From Alphaproteobacteria bacterium (GTDB taxonomy: Bacteria > Pseudomonadota > Alphaproteobacteria > RS24), in NCBI GenBank assembly GCA_022426245.1, contig JAKMDW010000026.1:1-45961 (forward strand): DNA of 45,961 bases. The letters run 5' to 3'. Shown in pieces: positions 12,488-22,890 of the stretch. The translations under genes and the position numbers were made by a program. Numbering within the stretch: position 1 is the first letter of the stretch; each line of letters begins with the position of its first letter. Under the pieces are notes generated by a model. It did no database searches. It worked only from the letters and a program-made list of their open reading frames with translations, and was not told the DNA's origin.

Positions 12488-14467
12488 GTGTCTGATAAAA
12501 TTCGCTGGGGTATCCTCGCCACAGGCAATATCGCTGCCCAATTCGCCACCGATCTGAAGCACAGCCATAGCGGCGTGTTGGCCGCTGCCGCCAGCCGTGA
12601 CCCGGACAAAGCCGAAACGTTTTGCGCCACGCATGGCGGCGACGCGGTGGTCGGCTATGACGCCTTGCTGGCGCGCGACGATATTGACGCCGTTTACATT
12701 GCCACGCCGCATGACAGCCATATTGAGTGGACGCATAAATGCTTGGCCGCCGGCAAGCCGGTTTTATGCGAAAAACCGCTCGGCCTCAATCAAGGCGAAG
12801 TGCTGAACCTCTATGGCGAAGCAGCGCGGCGCAATGTGCTGCTGGTTGAGGCGCTGATGTATCTCATGCACCCGCGCATGTTCCTCGCCAAACAGCTGAT
12901 TGATGATGGCGCAATCGGCAAAGTGACCGGCTTTTCATCCGGCTTTGGGTTTGCCTTTCCATTCACGCCCGAACACCGACTTTATAATATCGACCGCGCC
13001 GGCGGTGGCATTGTCGATATCGGCATTTATCCGCTCACCGCAGCGCGTTATCTGATTGGCGAACCTAATGCACTCGGCGGCGACGCGCGGCTTGCCCCGT
13101 CAGGTGCCGACGCAGAAGCTTGGGCGACCCTTTCTTATGACGGTTTCGACGCACAGTTGCATTGCGCCATCGACACCGAGCTTGAATGGCACATTACGGT
13201 TGAGGGTGACAAAGGCAGTTTGAAAATCAGCCAGCCCTGGCACCCGGGGCCTGAGAATAATCAGATTATCGTGACCGATAAAAGCGGCGCTGAGGCCATT
13301 CATGCCAGCGACGACAAGCGCCCGCTTTACGCCATTGAGGCCGACCATATGGGCGACCTGCTGAAGCGCGATGCGCTCATCTCAGATTTAGTCACGCCCG
13401 ATTTCTCAATCAACACCGCCTATTGGCTCGACCGCTGGCGCGATGCCGGCGGCGTCACATATGCGGCCGACACATTGGGCGCGACCGGCTTTCACGGCGC
13501 AGCCCTAAAACCTGGCGCACATGGCAGCGTGCCCAGCGTGGCACTTGAGGGGTTAGACAAGCCGGTTTCCAAACTCGTGCTCGGCACGGACAACCAAATC
13601 GACGCGCCGACAATGGCCGCCATGGGTGACGCGTTTTTTGAAGGCGGCGGCAATTGTTTTGACACAGCGTTCATTTATTCAGATGGCCGCTCTGAAGCAC
13701 TTCTCGGTGAATGGATGGCCGCGCGCGGCGTGCGCGAAGAGCTTGTTGTGTTGAGCAAGGGCGCGCATCCGCCCGAATGTTCACCGCAAGCCGTTGCGCG
13801 CCAACTCGACCGGTCGCTGGAGCGCTTACAAACCGATTATCTCGACCTTTACTGCCTGCACCGAGACGACCCCGCCATACCAATATCGGAATGGGTCGAT
13901 GCGCTTAACCGCGAAGTCGACAATGGCCGCATTAAATTATTTGGCGGCTCCAACTGGACAGCCAGCCGCGTTGACGAAGCCAATGAATATGCTGCTGCAA
14001 ATGGCCTGCAAGGTTTTTCATTGCTATCGAATAATTTCTCTTTGGCTCGCATGGAAGACCCGGTCTGGCCGGGCTGCCTTGCCAGTTCCACCGATGCGTT
14101 TCGGGATTGGCACACGGCGCAAAACTTTCCGCTGCTCCCTTGGTCAGCGCAAGCACGCGGCTTTTTCCTGAATTGGGAAGCAAGCGGTTTGGCCGCAACG
14201 CGCCACGGCGCAGACCCGACCGATGATGAGATGCAACGGGTTTGGGGTTCTGATGACAACCTTGAGCGACGACGTCGCGCCTTTGAATTGGCCGACAGAC
14301 TTGGGGTCAGCGCCATTCAAATCGCGCTGGCTTATGTCGTCAATCAGCCTTATCCGTGCTGTGCGCTTATCGGCCCCCGCAACCCGATGCAATTACAAGA
14401 CAGCCTTGATGCGGCGCAAATTTCTCTGACGCAAGACCAAGTGAACTGGCTGGATTTGCGCGATTAG
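12488..14467 (+). CDS. Fusion protein: Gfo/Idh/MocA (dihydrodiol dehydrogenase-like) oxidoreductase + aldo/keto reductase
   Basis: N-terminal RWGILATGNIAAQFA...GKPVLCEKPL. C-terminal TIM-barrel AKR: FDTAFIYSDGRSEALLGEW, SLERLQTDYLDLYCLHRDD, ALIGPRNPMQLQDSL. Continuous 659-aa frame. Confidence 0.88.
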   Translation: MSDKIRWGILATGNIAAQFATDLKHSHSGVLAAAASRDPDKAETFCATHGGDAVVGYDALLARDDIDAVYIATPHDSHIEWTHKCLAAGKPVLCEKPLGLNQGEVLNLYGEAARRNVLLVEALMYLMHPRMFLAKQLIDDGAIGKVTGFSSGFGFAFPFTPEHRLYNIDRAGGGIVDIGIYPLTAARYLIGEPNALGGDARLAPSGADAEAWATLSYDGFDAQLHCAIDTELEWHITVEGDKGSLKISQPWHPGPENNQIIVTDKSGAEAIHASDDKRPLYAIEADHMGDLLKRDALISDLVTPDFSINTAYWLDRWRDAGGVTYAADTLGATGFHGAALKPGAHGSVPSVALEGLDKPVSKLVLGTDNQIDAPTMAAMGDAFFEGGGNCFDTAFIYSDGRSEALLGEWMAARGVREELVVLSKGAHPPECSPQAVARQLDRSLERLQTDYLDLYCLHRDDPAIPISEWVDALNREVDNGRIKLFGGSNWTASRVDEANEYAAANGLQGFSLLSNNFSLARMEDPVWPGCLASSTDAFRDWHTAQNFPLLPWSAQARGFFLNWEASGLAATRHGADPTDDEMQRVWGSDDNLERRRRAFELADRLGVSAIQIALAYVVNQPYPCCALIGPRNPMQLQDSLDAAQISLTQDQVNWLDLRD

Positions 14468-16866
14468 GAGCGCACCAGCCGCGCCAAAAAACGCAGCCAG
14501 CGATTGTTCAACGCCAGTAAAAGCAGGTCGAAAAGCTTGGGCGACAACGCACCGCCCGACATGATTTGCACAGTCTTCAAACGCAGCGACATAACCATCT
14601 CCTCGCGCATTTTCATCGCAACCGGCGTTTCTTGGCGCTTGCCCATGGTCTTCGCCGCCATCTCTAGCGCCGCATTGGCAACCCGTTTACCGACCCAATG
14701 ATGACGAATATCAGCCAGCGTCGTATTGGCATGATAGGGTTTAATGCTCTCAGCCGGTGGTACGCGTAAGCCCAAAGCCGCCAGTTGAGCGTCTTGCATA
14801 ATGACATAAGGTGCTTCAACCAGAGGTTGTGAGTTGTGGCCACTGCCCGCGGGCAATTCAACCGATAGGGTTTCGCGAATATCGGCACTTGAGGCAGCAA
14901 ACAGAATTTCAAACACGCCCGGCTCCACGTCCCAATCGTCCAGCGTCACATTAAAATAGGCGAAAGCGCGCTTATCCAACACGAAGCGAATTTCCTTTGC
15001 TTCATCCGGTTGCAGCATGATTTTTTGAAATGCCTTTAACTCGCGCTCGGGACGATAAGCAGCGCTTTCGACGTCGCGCACATAGAGTTGGATGATTTCC
15101 GCACCGGCGCAAGAGCCGGTGTTTTTGACAGTCACCGCCACTTCCATAGTTTCATTATCGGCTGACCAATCAGCGACCAGTGTGGCATCAGAATAGGTGA
15201 ATTTTGTGTAGCTTAGGCCATGACCAAAGGCAAACAGCGTCGGCACATTATGCGTGATGAAATGGCGATAACCGATATTCAGCCCCTCGCGATAAACCAA
15301 TTGGCGTTTGTGATTGGCAAAATTTTCCTGCGCCGGACAGTCGTCCAAACGCAGCGGAAAACTTTCAGCCAACTTGCCGCTCGGGCAAATATCGCCATAG
15401 ATCAAATCAACCAATGCGTGTGCACCGGCTTGCCCCGACAAATAGGTTTCTAAAACCGCAGACACGTTTTCCAGCCACGGCATTTCAATCGGCGCGCCAT
15501 TGGACAGCACGACAATGCAATTGGCATTGGCGGCAGCAACCGCGGTAATCAATTTTTCAATCTGCGCGGGCTGGCGCAAATGCGTGCGGTCAAAGCCTTC
15601 TGCCTCAAATAGGGGCGGCAGTCCGGCCATGATAATCGCAATATCAGCCGCTTGCGCCGCAGCGACAGCCTCGGCAATCAGCGCCGCATCATCGGCCGCC
15701 ATTTCCGCATCAAAGCCCGCCGCATAAGCAATCTTATCCGCCCCCAGTCGCGCCGTAAAAGCGTCTAACGGACGGTCTATCTTGGTCGCATTCACTTGCG
15801 ATGACCCGGCACCCTGAATGCGCGGCGTCTCGGCAAAAGCACCGATAAGCGCGACAGATTTATCGGCTGAGAGCGGCAGAATATCGGCGTTTTTTAGAAG
15901 AACCGCCCCATCAGCCGCGGCCTTGCGCGCCAACGCATGATGCGCGTCGAAATCGACTTTTCGGGGCGCCAGATTAGCCTTTGAGGCCATTATCAGTTGC
16001 GTCACCCGACCCGCAGCGCGGTCGAGATGCGCTTCATCAAAGGTGCCGTCTTTTACCTGCACCGCAACCAGCCGATCATTGACCCCACCACTGCTCGGCA
16101 TCTCCAATTCCAATCCGGCAGCAATGCCCCGTGGGCGATTATTTACCGCGCCCCAATCGGTGACCACCAAACCTCTAAAGCCCCAACGGTCGCGCAAAAT
16201 GGAGGTCAGCAAGTCCTCATGCTCGGAACAATAAATGCCGTTAAAACGATTATAGGCGCACATCACGGTCCACGGTTGGGCTTGCGATACAGCCGCTTCA
16301 AAAGCCGGAAGATAAATCTCAAACAGGGTGCGCCGATCAACCAGCGTATCTACAACCATTCGCTGCGCTTCCTGATTATTGACCGCGAAATGCTTTAAGC
16401 TGGTGCCCGTGCCGGTCGATTGCACGCCCTGCACGAAGCTCACTGCCATTTCCCCGGCCATGAACGGGTCTTCGGAATAATACTCAAAATTGCGCCCGCA
16501 AAGGGGACTGCGTTTAATATTCACGCCCGGCGCGAGTAGAACCGACACGCCCTCAGCCTGACATTCGCGCCCAATCGCCGCCCCGACTTGATGAATAAGC
16601 GCCTTGTCCCAAGATGAAGCCAGCGTCACAGCGGTTGGAAAGCAGGTCGCCGGAACAGATGCGGTTAGCCCCATATGGTCGGCTTGATTGCCCTGTTTGC
16701 GCAATCCATGCGGCCCGTCCGACACCATAATCGGCGGCAGGTCATATTGCGCCAATGGCTGCAAATGCCAAAAGCTGGAGCCCGACATAAGAGAGGCTTT
16801 TTCATCGACCGACATGCGGGCCACCAGTGCCGTGGCTTCGTTCTCAAAATCATATGGCTGCTTCAT
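14464..16866 (-). CDS. Glycoside hydrolase family 3 (beta-glucosidase-like)
   Basis: PPIMVSDGPHGLR, LLAPGVNIKRSPLCGRNFEYYSEDP, GLVVTDWGAVNN, C-terminal fibronectin III-like region. Start set at MKQPYDFEN. Confidence 0.92.
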   Translation of the reverse strand: MKQPYDFENEATALVARMSVDEKASLMSGSSFWHLQPLAQYDLPPIMVSDGPHGLRKQGNQADHMGLTASVPATCFPTAVTLASSWDKALIHQVGAAIGRECQAEGVSVLLAPGVNIKRSPLCGRNFEYYSEDPFMAGEMAVSFVQGVQSTGTGTSLKHFAVNNQEAQRMVVDTLVDRRTLFEIYLPAFEAAVSQAQPWTVMCAYNRFNGIYCSEHEDLLTSILRDRWGFRGLVVTDWGAVNNRPRGIAAGLELEMPSSGGVNDRLVAVQVKDGTFDEAHLDRAAGRVTQLIMASKANLAPRKVDFDAHHALARKAAADGAVLLKNADILPLSADKSVALIGAFAETPRIQGAGSSQVNATKIDRPLDAFTARLGADKIAYAAGFDAEMAADDAALIAEAVAAAQAADIAIIMAGLPPLFEAEGFDRTHLRQPAQIEKLITAVAAANANCIVVLSNGAPIEMPWLENVSAVLETYLSGQAGAHALVDLIYGDICPSGKLAESFPLRLDDCPAQENFANHKRQLVYREGLNIGYRHFITHNVPTLFAFGHGLSYTKFTYSDATLVADWSADNETMEVAVTVKNTGSCAGAEIIQLYVRDVESAAYRPERELKAFQKIMLQPDEAKEIRFVLDKRAFAYFNVTLDDWDVEPGVFEILFAASSADIRETLSVELPAGSGHNSQPLVEAPYVIMQDAQLAALGLRVPPAESIKPYHANTTLADIRHHWVGKRVANAALEMAAKTMGKRQETPVAMKMREEMVMSLRLKTVQIMSGGALSPKLFDLLLLALNNRWLRFLARLVRS

Positions 16867-16958
16867 TGCTCGCTCCCCTTGCCGCATTTGCAAAATGGCA
16901 CAATTATGACACTCTAAGCGGTCAATTACACGGCGACAAGCGGGCGGAGCATATTGTG

Positions 16959-18284
16959 GTGAAAATCGCTATTATCGGTGCAGGAAGCACGGTTTTCATG
17001 AAGAATATCGTGACAGATATTGTGCTTGAACCGGGCTTGGATAGCGCCCATATCGCGCTGCATGATATTGACGCCGAGCGCTTGGCGGTCTCAGAGAAAG
17101 TGGCGCATCGCATCTGCGAAGCAACCAACACCACCCCCACAATATCGGCCTACCTTGATCGGCGCGAGGCGCTGCAAGATGCTGATTTTGTTATTACCAT
17201 GATTCAAGTCGGTGGCTATCAGCCCGCTACGCTTACCGATTTTGAAATTCCAAAAAAATACGGCCTGCGCCAGACCATTGGGGACACTTTGGGCGTTGGC
17301 GGCATTATGCGCGGGCTCCGCACAGTGCCGGTGCTGCAAGCCATCGCTCATGATATGGCTGATTGCTGCCCCGAAGCCCTGTTGCTGCAATATGTAAACC
17401 CGATGGCAATAAATTGCCTCGCACTTTCCAAACTCGCGCCCCAGTTGAAATATGTTGGCCTGTGTCATTCAGTGCAGGGCACGGCAATTGACTTGGCGCG
17501 CGACCTTGGCGAAAAGCCCGAAGCGATTGACTATGACTGCGCGGGTATCAATCATGTCGCTTTCTATACGCGTTTTGAAAAGCGTCATGCCGATGGCCGT
17601 ATGGAAGACCTTTATCCGCGCCTCAAGCTATTGGCACAATCGCGTGACTATGGGCGTGGCTGGGAGGATTGCGCCAATCATGTGCGTTATGACATGCTCA
17701 CACGGCTTGGCTATTTCGTTACCGAAAGCTCGGAACATTTTGCTGAATACACGCCCTATTTCATCAAGGGAAACCAACCGCAACTCATTGATAAATATGA
17801 GATACCTCTCGATGAATATCCGCGCCGCTGCGAAGCGCAAATTGCCGAATGGGAAGCGCAAGCCGCGGCGCTGACCGGCGGTGGCGAGATGTTATGCGAG
17901 AAATCGGTTGAATATGCCGCCCGCATCATCGGTGCGATGGTTTCGGGAACGGGCGATAAGGTTCATGGCAATGTCGCCAATCGGGGGCTGATTGATAATC
18001 TGCCGGAGAATGCCTGTGTCGAAGTGCCGTGTCTGATTGATGGCAATGGCCTCGCGCCGCAAAAAGTCGGTGCACTGCCACCGCATCTGGCGGCGCTGAT
18101 GCAAACCAATATTAACGTGCAACAACTGACGGTTGAGGCGCTGGTGACCGGCAAGCGCGAGCATGTTTACCACGCCGCCATGCTCGATCCACATACGGCG
18201 GCTGAATTAAACCTTGATCAGATTTGGGGCTTGGTTAATGAGCTGTTGGAAGCGCATGGCGCGGCCATTCCCGAATTGCGATAA
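16959..18284 (+). CDS. Glycoside hydrolase family 4 (NAD-dependent alpha-glycosidase, MelA/AglA-like)
   Basis: KIAIIGAGSTVFMKNIVTDI, GDTLGVGGIMRGLRTVPV, VGLCHSVQGT, AGINHVAFYTRFE. GTG start at 16959. Confidence 0.88.
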   Translation: MKIAIIGAGSTVFMKNIVTDIVLEPGLDSAHIALHDIDAERLAVSEKVAHRICEATNTTPTISAYLDRREALQDADFVITMIQVGGYQPATLTDFEIPKKYGLRQTIGDTLGVGGIMRGLRTVPVLQAIAHDMADCCPEALLLQYVNPMAINCLALSKLAPQLKYVGLCHSVQGTAIDLARDLGEKPEAIDYDCAGINHVAFYTRFEKRHADGRMEDLYPRLKLLAQSRDYGRGWEDCANHVRYDMLTRLGYFVTESSEHFAEYTPYFIKGNQPQLIDKYEIPLDEYPRRCEAQIAEWEAQAAALTGGGEMLCEKSVEYAARIIGAMVSGTGDKVHGNVANRGLIDNLPENACVEVPCLIDGNGLAPQKVGALPPHLAALMQTNINVQQLTVEALVTGKREHVYHAAMLDPHTAAELNLDQIWGLVNELLEAHGAAIPELR

Positions 18285-18315: not shown

Positions 18316-18933
18316 ATGCGTGACGTTTTTCAAGTTTATTTCAAGCATGGCACGGTGCAATTTTTATTCGCCGCGCTGTTTATTTGTGCCTATGCGGTCG
18401 AGGGATTAGCACTCTGGCAAAGCTGGCCGTGGATGCTGCTGGTCATCGCCAGCGCGCCGTTTTTTGAATGGGTGACGCATAAATATACGCTGCACCGCCC
18501 GCTCACCGATAAGCCGGGCTTTTGGCGTGATTATCAAATTCGACTGCATCATGGCCATCATCTGCATCCCGAGCGGCGCGACCTGCAATTTGCGCCGGTA
18601 AGCGGCATTATTATTATGTTCATTCAGCTTTATCTCAGCTATGCGCTGTTTACATGGTCGTGGAGCACGGCGCTTGTGCCGCTGCTCGCCTCAATAGCCT
18701 ATTATCTGATTTATGAATGGATACATTTGGCTCACCATACGCAAAGTTATAAGCCGATTTTCGGGTGGGGGCGAAGCTTGCGCGACGCGCATATGCGCCA
18801 TCATTTTCACAATGAAAATTATAATTGGGGCATCACAAACGGCTTTGGTGATGTTTTGCTCGGCACTTGGAAAAGCACTAGCGATGTCGATAAAAGCCCG
18901 ACGGCGAAAAAACTGTCCGGATATGAGGGCTAA
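18316..18933 (+). CDS. Fatty acid hydroxylase / sterol desaturase superfamily membrane protein
   Basis: HKYTLHRPL, LHHGHHLHPERR, HLAHHTQSY and HMRHHFHNENYNWG His clusters. Start after GAGGAG at 18316. Confidence 0.78.
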   Translation: MRDVFQVYFKHGTVQFLFAALFICAYAVEGLALWQSWPWMLLVIASAPFFEWVTHKYTLHRPLTDKPGFWRDYQIRLHHGHHLHPERRDLQFAPVSGIIIMFIQLYLSYALFTWSWSTALVPLLASIAYYLIYEWIHLAHHTQSYKPIFGWGRSLRDAHMRHHFHNENYNWGITNGFGDVLLGTWKSTSDVDKSPTAKKLSGYEG

Positions 18934-19998
18934 ATGAACGAGATTTCAATCGGTATTATTGGCGCCGGTATGATGGGCCAAGAGCATATTCAAAACTTCA
19001 ATCTGCTTGAGGGCGCACAAGTGACCGCGCTGGCCGATACGGATGCCGCGATGTTGGCAAAAGCCGCCGAGATGACAAACGGCACGCCGATGCAAAGCGA
19101 TGATTTCGAGACTTTACTGGGCGATAACGGACCCGATGTGCTGGTTATTTCCACTCCGAATTTCCATCACATAGATGTGCTGGAAACCGCGCTGGAAGCC
19201 GGTAAGCCGATTTTATGCGAAAAACCGCTATGCACGACGCTGGAGGATACGCAAAAAGTCATGCGCCGCGTCGGGCATCTTGATTTGATTTTTCAGGTTG
19301 GCATGGAATATCGCTTCAAGCCCGCACTGAACGAGATGATTAACCGCGTGCGGCGCGGCGATATCGGCCAAATTCAAATGCTATCGATTCGCGAACACCG
19401 TTTTCCTTTCTTACCCAAAGTCGGGGATTGGAACCGCTTTAACCGAAATACGGGCGGCACTTTGGTTGAAAAATGCTGTCACTTTTTCGACCTGATGCGT
19501 TTTATCATCGGCAGTGAACCGACCGGCGTTATTGCCTCAGCCGGGCAAAACGTCAATCACCTTGACGAAACCTATGGTGGCCAGACGCCTGATATTTGGG
19601 ACAATGGCTATGTTGTGTTTGATTTCGCCAATGGCGCCCGCGCCATGCTGGATTTATGCATGTTTGCCGAAGGCTCGCGCCATAGCGAAGAGCTCGCCGC
19701 GATTGGCGACAAAGCCAAAGTGGAATGCCTCTTGCCGCAAAATATTGTCACCCATGGCAACCGCGAAAACTGGCATGTGACCCAAGATGATATTCACGTG
19801 CCTGACGAGATTTTGAACGCCGGTTATCATTCGGGCGCGACCTATTACCAAAACAAGGCCTTTCTCGATGCCGTGCGCGGTGCGGCCGAGGTGCCGGTGA
19901 CCGCACTTGATGGTCACCGCGCCGTAGCGATGGGCGTGGCAGCGCAAATGGCCGCGGCAGAGAAACGCCGCATAGATATGACAGAGGTGGGGCTATGA
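18934..19998 (+). CDS. Gfo/Idh/MocA family NAD-dependent protein (candidate GH188-type)
   Basis: IGIIGAGMMGQEHIQNF, GKPILCEKPLCTT, NTGGTLVEKCCHFFDLMRF. Confidence 0.85.
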   Translation: MNEISIGIIGAGMMGQEHIQNFNLLEGAQVTALADTDAAMLAKAAEMTNGTPMQSDDFETLLGDNGPDVLVISTPNFHHIDVLETALEAGKPILCEKPLCTTLEDTQKVMRRVGHLDLIFQVGMEYRFKPALNEMINRVRRGDIGQIQMLSIREHRFPFLPKVGDWNRFNRNTGGTLVEKCCHFFDLMRFIIGSEPTGVIASAGQNVNHLDETYGGQTPDIWDNGYVVFDFANGARAMLDLCMFAEGSRHSEELAAIGDKAKVECLLPQNIVTHGNRENWHVTQDDIHVPDEILNAGYHSGATYYQNKAFLDAVRGAAEVPVTALDGHRAVAMGVAAQMAAAEKRRIDMTEVGL

Positions 19999-20909
19999 GT
20001 TTCGGAGACAGCGAAAATCTGGTCGACGGCAATGCCCGCAAAATCGGTGGCAAGGAAGTCGGCGCATTGGCATTTGGCTGCTGGCGCTTGGTTGGTGACG
20101 ATGTTGCAGACGCCACAGCGCGCATAGAGGTCGCGCTGGATAACGGATTAAACCTCATCGACAATGCCGATGTTTATGGCCTCGACTGGGGTGGGCAAGC
20201 ATTTGGCGAAAGTGAAACCCTACTCGGCAAAGTGCTCGCCGCCGCGCCGGCTTTGCGCGACCGTATGGTGCTGGCCAGCAAGGGCAGCATTATTCCCGGC
20301 ATTCCTTACGTCGCCAGTGCCGATTATCTGAACGCCGCAGTGGATGCCTCACTGACACGCCTGCAAAGCGAGCATATCGACCTATACCAAATCCACCGCC
20401 CCGACATGTTTACCCATCCCGCCGAAACAGCCGCCGCGCTGGACGGCTTGGTGCAGGCAGGTAAAATTGGCATGGTCGGGATATCAAATTACACACAAGC
20501 GCAAGAAGATGCGCTGCGCCAATTTATGAAAGCGCCGCTCGTCTCGTTGCAATCTGAATACTCACTGGCAGCACTCAACGTATTGCGCGACGGCACGCTC
20601 GATCGCTGCATGGCCGGCGACACGGCGTTTCTCGCCTGGTCACCGCTGGCCGGTGGCCGCTTGGTCAGCGGCGAGGGTTTGCGCCCCGAATTGATGCACA
20701 CAATCGATAGATTGGCAGCACGCGAGAATACCGACCGCGCAGGCATTGGGCTGGCCTTTGTGCTGGCGCACCCATCGCGTCCCATCGCCATTATCGGTTC
20801 GCAAAATGCCGCCCGCATTGAAACCGCAACCGAGGCACTATCCATGTCCTTGACGCGCCAAGACGTCTATGCGCTGATCGAGGCCGCCGAAGGCGTGCCC
20901 CTGCCCTAG
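19995..20909 (+). CDS. Aldo/keto reductase (YdhF/SmoB-like subgroup)
   Basis: FGCWRLVGDDVAD, LIDNADVYG, HIDLYQIHRPD, VGISNYTQAQ, AWSPLAGGRL. ATGA overlap with the upstream gene. Confidence 0.88.
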   Translation: MSFGDSENLVDGNARKIGGKEVGALAFGCWRLVGDDVADATARIEVALDNGLNLIDNADVYGLDWGGQAFGESETLLGKVLAAAPALRDRMVLASKGSIIPGIPYVASADYLNAAVDASLTRLQSEHIDLYQIHRPDMFTHPAETAAALDGLVQAGKIGMVGISNYTQAQEDALRQFMKAPLVSLQSEYSLAALNVLRDGTLDRCMAGDTAFLAWSPLAGGRLVSGEGLRPELMHTIDRLAARENTDRAGIGLAFVLAHPSRPIAIIGSQNAARIETATEALSMSLTRQDVYALIEAAEGVPLP

Positions 20910-20920
20910 AAAGAATAATT

Positions 20921-22000
20921 ATGAGCCAATATCCAAAAGCCGAAATCAGCTGGTTTTCAGCCCTTTGCGACGATGATTATCAGTTTCTCGGCGTCGAGGA
21001 CCCCAGCCTGAAAGCCAGTTGGCCGCATTGCCGCGATATCGCGCTAACGGCTGAGAAGAACGGCTTCGATAATATCCTGCTCCCCTCCGGTTATACGCTG
21101 GGTATGGACTCGATTGGTTTTGCCGGTGGCATTGCCCCGCTGCTGGAGAAGATGCGGCTGCTGGTGGCTGTGCGCTGCGGCGAAATGTGGGTGCCGCAAC
21201 TGGCGCGCCAACTGGCAACACTTGACCAGATGTTGGGCGGCCGCCTGACCATTAATATTATTTCTTCTGACCTGCCCGGCCAAACGCTTGACGGCGCACC
21301 GCGCTATCAGCGCACACGTGAGATAATGCAGTCACTGCGCAAATTCTTGAATGGCGAGGCGGTGCAGCTTGATGGCGAGCATATCCGCTTGGATTTAGAG
21401 GCGCCGCGCATGCAAACCGTATCGGGCAAATGCCCGCCTTTTTATTTTGGTGGCCTGTCACCTGCGGCGCGTGATGTGGCGGCTGAGGAGGCCGATGTCT
21501 TTCTCATGTGGCCGGACACGATGGATAAGGTCAGCGATATTTTGGACGATATGCGGCAACGGGCGGCAGGCTATAATCGCACATTGAAATTCGGTTATCG
21601 CGCGCATGTGATTGTTCGCGAAACCGAAGAAGAGGCGCGCGCCGCCGCCGACAAGCTCATCAGCAGGCTTGATGATGGGGTTGGCGAAGCGATACGCAAT
21701 CGCTCGCTCGATAGCGCATCCTATGGGGTTCGACGACAGGCCGAAATGCGAGACGCGGCCAATGCTGCCGGTTCGGGCGACTATGTCGAGGATAATTTAT
21801 GGACCGGTGTAGGGCGTGCACGCTCAGGCTGCGGGGCGGCAATCGTCGGCGACCCGACCCAAGTTTTAGCCAAACTCAACGCCTATCGCGACCTCGGCAT
21901 CGAAGCCTTTATCCTGTCCGGTTATCCGCACACGGACGAGTGCGATTTATTCGGCAAATATGTGCTGCCAAAACTTGACCACGGGCCGTTGGAAATCTGA
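20921..22000 (+). CDS. LLM-class flavin-dependent monooxygenase (alkanesulfonate/sulfoquinovose monooxygenase-like)
   Basis: GGRLTINIISSDLPGQT, SGKCPPFYFGGLSPAARDVAAEEADVFLMW, GCGAAIVGDPTQVLAKL, IEAFILSGYPH. Confidence 0.87.
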   Translation: MSQYPKAEISWFSALCDDDYQFLGVEDPSLKASWPHCRDIALTAEKNGFDNILLPSGYTLGMDSIGFAGGIAPLLEKMRLLVAVRCGEMWVPQLARQLATLDQMLGGRLTINIISSDLPGQTLDGAPRYQRTREIMQSLRKFLNGEAVQLDGEHIRLDLEAPRMQTVSGKCPPFYFGGLSPAARDVAAEEADVFLMWPDTMDKVSDILDDMRQRAAGYNRTLKFGYRAHVIVRETEEEARAAADKLISRLDDGVGEAIRNRSLDSASYGVRRQAEMRDAANAAGSGDYVEDNLWTGVGRARSGCGAAIVGDPTQVLAKLNAYRDLGIEAFILSGYPHTDECDLFGKYVLPKLDHGPLEI

Positions 22001-22890
22001 TGCGCTTTGGCCTCGACCTCGGCGGCACCAAAATGGAAGCCGCTTTGCTTGATGATGCAGGCGCAATTATCTGGCGCGAGCGTCGCCCGACACCGGCTGA
22101 AAATTATGATGCCATTCTTGATGTCATTGCGGGGCTGGTTGCCAAAGCACAAGATGAAACCGGTGACACGCCCTCTATCGGTATCGCTATGCCCGGTTCG
22201 CTGTCACCGAAAACCGGATTGGTTCGCAACTCCAACACGCAATGCCTGAATGGCCAGCCGATGAAACAGGATTTGGAAACCAAGCTCGGTCGCGAGGTGC
22301 GGCTCGCCAATGATGCAAATTGTTTTGCTTTATCTGAGGCCGTCGACGGCGCCGGTGCCGGCGCGCAATCGGTTTTTGGCGTGATTTTCGGCACAGGTTG
22401 CGGCGGTGGCTTGGTGTTTGACGGCCAATTACAAAACGGCGCAAACGGCATTGGCGGCGAATGGGGGCACAACCCGTTGGCCGCAATGCGGCCCGATGAA
22501 GTGCCCGGTCCAGATTGTTATTGCGGCCGACAAGGCTGCAATGAGACTTGGATTTCCGGCTCAGGATTTGCCCGCGACCATGAATATGTGACCGGCGAAA
22601 AACGGACGGCAGAGGAAATTATTGCCAGCGATAGCGATGCCGCCAAAGCGAGCTTTGAGCGCTTATGTGACCGCATGGCGCGCGCGCTTGGCGCGGTCAT
22701 CAATCTGGTTGATCCGGAAGTGATTGTGCTGGGCGGCGGCCTGTCTAATGTCGACGCACTTTACACGCGCATCCCCGACATATGGAACGCTTATATTTTC
22801 TCGGACATTATTGAGACCCAATTACTGCCCAATAAACATGGCGACGCCAGCGGTGTGCGCGGCGCCGCTTGGTTATGGCCGGTCAAATAG
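22000..22890 (+). CDS. ROK family sugar kinase (fructokinase/glucokinase-like)
   Basis: FGLDLGGTKMEAALLD, ANDANCFALSEA, GTGCGGGLV, zinc motif CYCGRQGCNETWISG. Start overlaps the upstream stop (TGATG). Confidence 0.9.
   Translation: MRFGLDLGGTKMEAALLDDAGAIIWRERRPTPAENYDAILDVIAGLVAKAQDETGDTPSIGIAMPGSLSPKTGLVRNSNTQCLNGQPMKQDLETKLGREVRLANDANCFALSEAVDGAGAGAQSVFGVIFGTGCGGGLVFDGQLQNGANGIGGEWGHNPLAAMRPDEVPGPDCYCGRQGCNETWISGSGFARDHEYVTGEKRTAEEIIASDSDAAKASFERLCDRMARALGAVINLVDPEVIVLGGGLSNVDALYTRIPDIWNAYIFSDIIETQLLPNKHGDASGVRGAAWLWPVK

Follow-up and report, generated by a model that had tools for sequence, protein, structure and literature searches.

A gene cluster in a marine alphaproteobacterium very probably encodes sulfoquinovose (SQ) catabolism by the GH188-type SQ monooxygenase route (sulfo-SMO/sulfo-ASMO). 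This reading, also put forward in an earlier note on the same DNA, draws on the observed protein families, clades and residues, on the order of the genes and on co-distribution, from which the catalytic steps are predicted. The SmoC clade of the monooxygenase, the binding-site residues of the GH188 glycosidase, the adjacency of smoB and smoC and the co-distribution of a ROK kinase with smoC all agree with it. The window, i.e. the whole stretch of 45,961 nucleotides that was analysed, is a complete contig of a 1.8 Mb genome (133 contigs, ~90% complete). Among named records, metagenome genomes of the PS1 clade and of 'Rhodobiaceae' are the closest, and the host is an uncultured PS1-clade marine alphaproteobacterium.

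Organisation of the locus

The following features are referred to below.

16956..18284, + strand: GH4 NAD-dependent glycosidase of the alpha-galactosidase (MelA) type (Pfam Glyco_hydro_4/4C; NCBIfam PRK15076)
~18316..18933, + strand: FA_hydroxylase-family (di-iron membrane hydroxylase-like) protein (Pfam PF04116)
18934..19998, + strand: sqgA-like, putative GH188 NAD-dependent sulfoquinovosidase, 354 aa (Pfam GFO_IDH_MocA; nearest structures; contact residues)
19995..20909, + strand: smoB/squF-like aldo/keto reductase, predicted 6-dehydroglucose reductase, 304 aa (Pfam PF00248; PDB matches; synteny)
20921..22000, + strand: smoC/squD-like, predicted flavin-dependent SQ monooxygenase, 359 aa (Pfam Bac_luciferase; identity; tree; diagnostic columns)
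22000..22890, + strand: ROK sugar kinase, proposed pathway glucokinase, 296 aa (Pfam ROK; presence pattern)

The earlier note described the last four genes as a tight operon. They are indeed consecutive on the + strand, with reading frames open over the full lengths listed and Pfam scores (GFO_IDH_MocA, Aldo_ket_red, Bac_luciferase and ROK) far over the cut-offs, and the junctions are as claimed: an ATGA overlap at 19995-19998, an 11-nt gap and TGATG at 21998-22002 (1-nt overlap). The extent of four genes did not stand, as two co-directional genes upstream had been overlooked. The transcription unit probably starts further upstream, with the hydroxylase-like gene and the GH4 gene ahead of the GH188 gene. 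Promoter and terminator scans performed no better than on shuffled sequences. The order GH188-SmoB-SmoC is conserved in other genera of the PS1 family, with ROK included in one of them, and the arrangement is therefore not due to chance. In genus g4 (L028:5194-12929), an LptD-like gene is followed by the hydroxylase-GH188-SmoB-SmoC block and then by a carboxyltransferase gene, with ROK located elsewhere.

The hydroxylase-like gene, for which the start codon was picked by eye from an upstream GAGGAG, has its last base immediately before the GH188 ATG; in three PS1 genera it adjoins the GH188 gene with a small gap or none. Its product shows a weak match to the yeast ceramide fatty acid hydroxylase Scs7. 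A role as an enzyme of the SQ pathway is not supported: adjacency is the one argument for it, and in the smoC-lacking genome G013 the gene is found elsewhere in an unrelated context. The GH4 gene, also co-directional with the operon, ends 31 nt before the hydroxylase-like gene; its start is approximate, the list of open reading frames placing it at 16827. The GH4 protein reaches 635 bits with the NCBIfam alpha-galactosidase model PRK15076, which is over the cut-off. The gene is limited to one subset of the genus and is missing at the equivalent place in L024, L025 and L030. A GH3 gene lies beside the operon on the minus strand (within 14464-18284), the closest model being exo-alpha-L-arabinopyranosidase with a score below its cut-off. 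Positions 12488-14467 encode a 659-aa fusion of Gfo/Idh/MocA and aldo/keto reductase domains (GFO-AKR), which is conserved as a neighbour of the SQ operon in two genera. It was considered as a fused GH188-SmoB and discarded, with 24% identity to GH188, 30% to SmoB and all three sulfonate-binding residues missing.

The GH3 and GH4 proteins are possibly galactolipid head-group enzymes. The locus could be read more widely as serving plastid glycolipid head groups, with GH4 acting on alpha-galactosyl groups, GH3 on beta-linked sugars, GH188 on SQ and the hydroxylase and an acyl-CoA synthetase on the acyl parts. This would include the SQ pathway and not exclude it. We consider the wider reading rather unlikely: the GH4 score above the alpha-galactosidase cut-off is consistent with it, but the gene is confined to part of one genus, and while GH3, GFO-AKR, P450 and long-chain acyl-CoA synthetase genes flank the operon in two genera, the flanks in a third are entirely different. 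Moreover, the hydroxylase gene stands apart from SQ genes in a smoC-lacking relative, and the fusion protein has no sulfonate site. That the FA_hydroxylase-like protein together with GH4 and GH3 belongs to a PS1-clade locus which dismantles plastid glycolipids, from SQ and galactosyl head groups to the acyl parts, without a dedicated ABC importer appears quite unlikely; if true, a streamlined ocean bacterium would import the head groups by another route than such an importer.

The putative sulfoquinovosidase

The assignment of the Gfo/Idh/MocA protein to GH188, as first suggested in the earlier note, is supported by its nearest solved structures as well as by published contact residues. The top PDB matches, 8zn9, 8qc3 and 8qc2, score 291-310 bits, compared to 91 for the next Gfo/Idh/MocA entry. 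Identity to GH188 sulfoquinovosidases is 43%, including ArSqgA and FlSqgA (8qc3, 8qc2). K97, Y126, E154, R156, L160, K162, E179, H183 and H299 match the contact residues of ArSqgA listed in PMC10755693. Within this set, the sulfonate-binding triad Arg166, Leu170 and Lys172 of ArSqgA corresponds to R156, L160 and K162, and the catalytic and sugar contacts Lys107, Tyr136, Glu189, His193 and His321 to K97, Y126, E179, H183 and H299. Glu163 of PMC10755693 is one off in the alignment numbering used here, in which the Glu at 164 is conserved. In the same alignment, the inositol dehydrogenase 4hkt has neither the Tyr nor the Leu nor Lys172. Rare GH188 members carry Tyr at the Leu170 position (PMC11465081); the window protein has Leu, like ArSqgA and FlSqgA, and differs from these two in being somewhat shorter ahead of the His321 region.

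These contacts also bear on the substrate. The same set of enzymes might act on a related sulfosugar or glycoside, e.g. sulfofucose or a differently linked sulfoquinovoside, instead of SQ from sulfolipid. Further sulfosugar pathways are known (PMC12421959), and 48-51% identity of the monooxygenase to characterised SmoC allows for altered specificity. Still, we regard this as very unlikely, since the Glu that contacts C4-OH in the SQ-complexed GH188 structures is conserved, as is every sulfonate contact, and the route of the product to the ROK kinase fits glucose.

The monooxygenase and the aldo/keto reductase

The protein encoded at 20921..22000 is closest to the solved structures 7olf (378 bits, 51% identity) and 7oh2 (358 bits, 48% identity), which carry generic PDB labels and which we take to be SmoC structures from the Agrobacterium/Rhizobium sulfo-SMO work. 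SsuD entries score 244 and 212 bits, with identities of 40% and 35% to two SsuD proteins. A tree of 59 rows unites all SmoC-type proteins, among them the window protein, 7oh2 and 7olf, in one clade (support 100/99) with SsuD outside; the exact root of this tree is unsure because its deepest forks join long branches. Within the clade, the window protein belongs to a subclade of sphingomonads, PS1 and actinobacteria (support 83/77) and not to the rhizobial one. We further found 38 columns that are at least 97% constant in the SmoC-type rows (window protein and both crystal structures included) and at which both SsuD sequences differ. The position of SsuD Cys54 is occupied by Leu or Val in 83 of 83 SmoC-type rows.

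The earlier note favoured SmoC over SsuD, and a sequence test set beforehand came out in its favour: the protein groups with the SmoC-type SQ monooxygenases, lies outside the SsuD clade and stays under the NCBIfam equivalog cut-off for SsuD. Generic SsuD-type scavenging of alkanesulfonate sulfur beside unrelated sugar oxidoreductases is thus very improbable, as its supporting features, namely the fold and the conserved R226, H228, R297, Y331 and H333 (presumably the SsuD catalytic residues), are common to SsuD and SmoC, and alkanesulfonate monooxygenase as best named NCBIfam family is reached at half the cut-off (260 versus 518 bits), whereas clade, diagnostic columns, the Cys54 position and the full SQ-binding site of the adjoining GH188 protein all argue against it.

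For the aldo/keto reductase (19995..20909), the top PDB matches are 7bby and 7bbz (147 bits; 34.5% identity to 7bby), presumably SmoB structures, followed by the YdhF family with 123 bits. Judged by sequence, the support for SmoB is modest. The SmoB role proposed in the earlier note fits the context: the gene is adjacent to smoC in the window, and in nearly all of the 80 related loci a homologue immediately precedes smoC.

Flavin reductase and importer

Neither a flavin reductase (SmoA), a usual and not obligatory part of sulfo-SMO clusters, nor an ABC importer was found in the cluster, which is in line with the earlier note. When PF01613-type homologues were sought within ~10 kb of smoC, none was present in 80 related loci, some of them incomplete, and no SsuE-type PF03358 reductase was found in six family genomes. 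Some sulfo-SMO clusters are described to be without a flavin reductase (review PMC9594981). Together with the 0/80 loci, this means that the missing reductase does not exclude membership of the sulfo-SMO type.

The genome contains one PF01613 flavin reductase, on contig C74. Its homologues are found at a separate conserved site beside transporter genes, also in the smoC-lacking genome G021, which makes it a candidate partner and not a proven one. A block made up of a TRAP transporter, a DASS-type transporter and the single PF01613 reductase is conserved across three genera (L102:3800-10159). A dedication of this reductase to SQ is not supported, as homologues with at least 45% identity occur in three smoC-lacking genomes (G009, G012 and G021) and the neighbourhood is conserved in G021. 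For an Agrobacterium-type ABC binding protein, the search gave no more than one SBP_bac_8 protein in each genome, and this protein is present in smoC-lacking relatives too.

The ROK kinase

The closest NCBIfam family of the ROK protein is fructokinase (Mak, PRK09557) with 383 bits. This is below the equivalog cut-off of 443 and leaves the substrate open between glucose, fructose and mannose, with glucose favoured by the context. ROK and smoC have the same presence pattern in 28 of 28 family genomes (18 with both, 10 with neither; Fisher p = 7.6e-8, a value that ignores relatedness). Where the two lie side by side, as in two genera, the absence of one contig takes away both. The co-distribution is informative in genus g4, where ROK is on another contig than smoC and G021 has neither gene, and in genus g3, in which six genomes lack both. 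No separate PF02685 glucokinase was found in G005, G010 and G014, and ROK is consequently the only recognised glucokinase candidate there. A separate PF02685 glucokinase is, however, encoded in the genome to which the window belongs, so ROK need not be the sole glucose kinase there. Context and co-distribution fit the phosphorylation step assigned to ROK in the earlier note, and it is most likely the glucokinase of the pathway.

Directly 3' of ROK, some PS1 genomes carry a small rhodanese-domain gene (L024:12040-12444) that is absent from the window. It could be linked to the handling of sulfite or sulfane sulfur.

Proposed pathway and comparison with known systems

In the proposed pathway, SqgA (18934-19998) would release SQ from sulfoquinovosyl glycerol with NAD+. 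SmoC/SquD (20921-22000) would then convert SQ and O2 to sulfite and 6-dehydroglucose, with a reductase from outside the cluster supplying the reduced flavin; the single PF01613 protein on contig C74 is the putative trans-acting enzyme. SmoB/SquF (19995-20909) would reduce 6-dehydroglucose to glucose, which after phosphorylation by the ROK kinase (22000-22890) would enter central metabolism.

The Agrobacterium tumefaciens sulfo-SMO system (SmoC 7oh2, SmoB 7bby/7bbz) likewise has SmoC and SmoB types encoded side by side, with C-S cleavage predicted to precede reduction to glucose. Apart from the identities given above, the window differs from it by a GH188 in place of the GH31 sulfoquinovosidase, by the lack of the ABC SQGro importer and the flavin reductase in the cluster, and by the additional ROK kinase. 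Sphingomonad SmoC proteins are among the nearest outside the PS1 family (at most 71% identity). The sulfo-ASMO cluster of Novosphingobium aromaticivorans (SquD/SquF) and related sphingomonad clusters share smoB directly upstream of smoC, but most sphingomonad loci have no GH188 match, and none has ROK near smoC. The N. aromaticivorans cluster is also without a flavin reductase and was, unlike what is seen in the window, discovered via its YihQ-type sulfoquinovosidase (PMC9594981). The presence of GH188 within sulfo-SMO clusters is described as nearly universal in the Roseobacter clade (PMC10755693). These marine bacteria share GH188 and the sulfo-SMO gene set with the window but belong to another family, and the ROK-linked operon was met here in the PS1 family only. 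Under the working definition of PMC13372026 (SmoB and SmoC within ten ORFs), the spacing of the two genes would make the window genome sulfo-SMO-positive. The earlier note had called the cluster rearranged and non-canonical. The missing reductase is real, but the label is overstated given published GH188-SMO and reductase-less clusters (PMC10755693, PMC9594981).

Significance

The locus is an example of a known pathway and not a new one, since GH188 and SmoB/SmoC are published and common. New here are the host group, the linkage and co-distribution of ROK, and the PS1-specific upstream gene. The find provides comparative evidence on the step after SmoB, in that ROK tracks smoC, and it points to a missing importer. 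A limited literature search returned no paper linking the PS1 clade to SQ, of which ~10 billion tons are produced a year (PMC10755693). On the sequence evidence, this uncultured ocean bacterium probably frees SQ, a sulfur-containing sugar of plants and algae, from its glycoside, desulfurises it and turns the remainder into glucose-phosphate. With smoC in 18 of the 28 family genomes, the PS1 clade of small-genome marine Alphaproteobacteria joins the likely SQ mineralisers.
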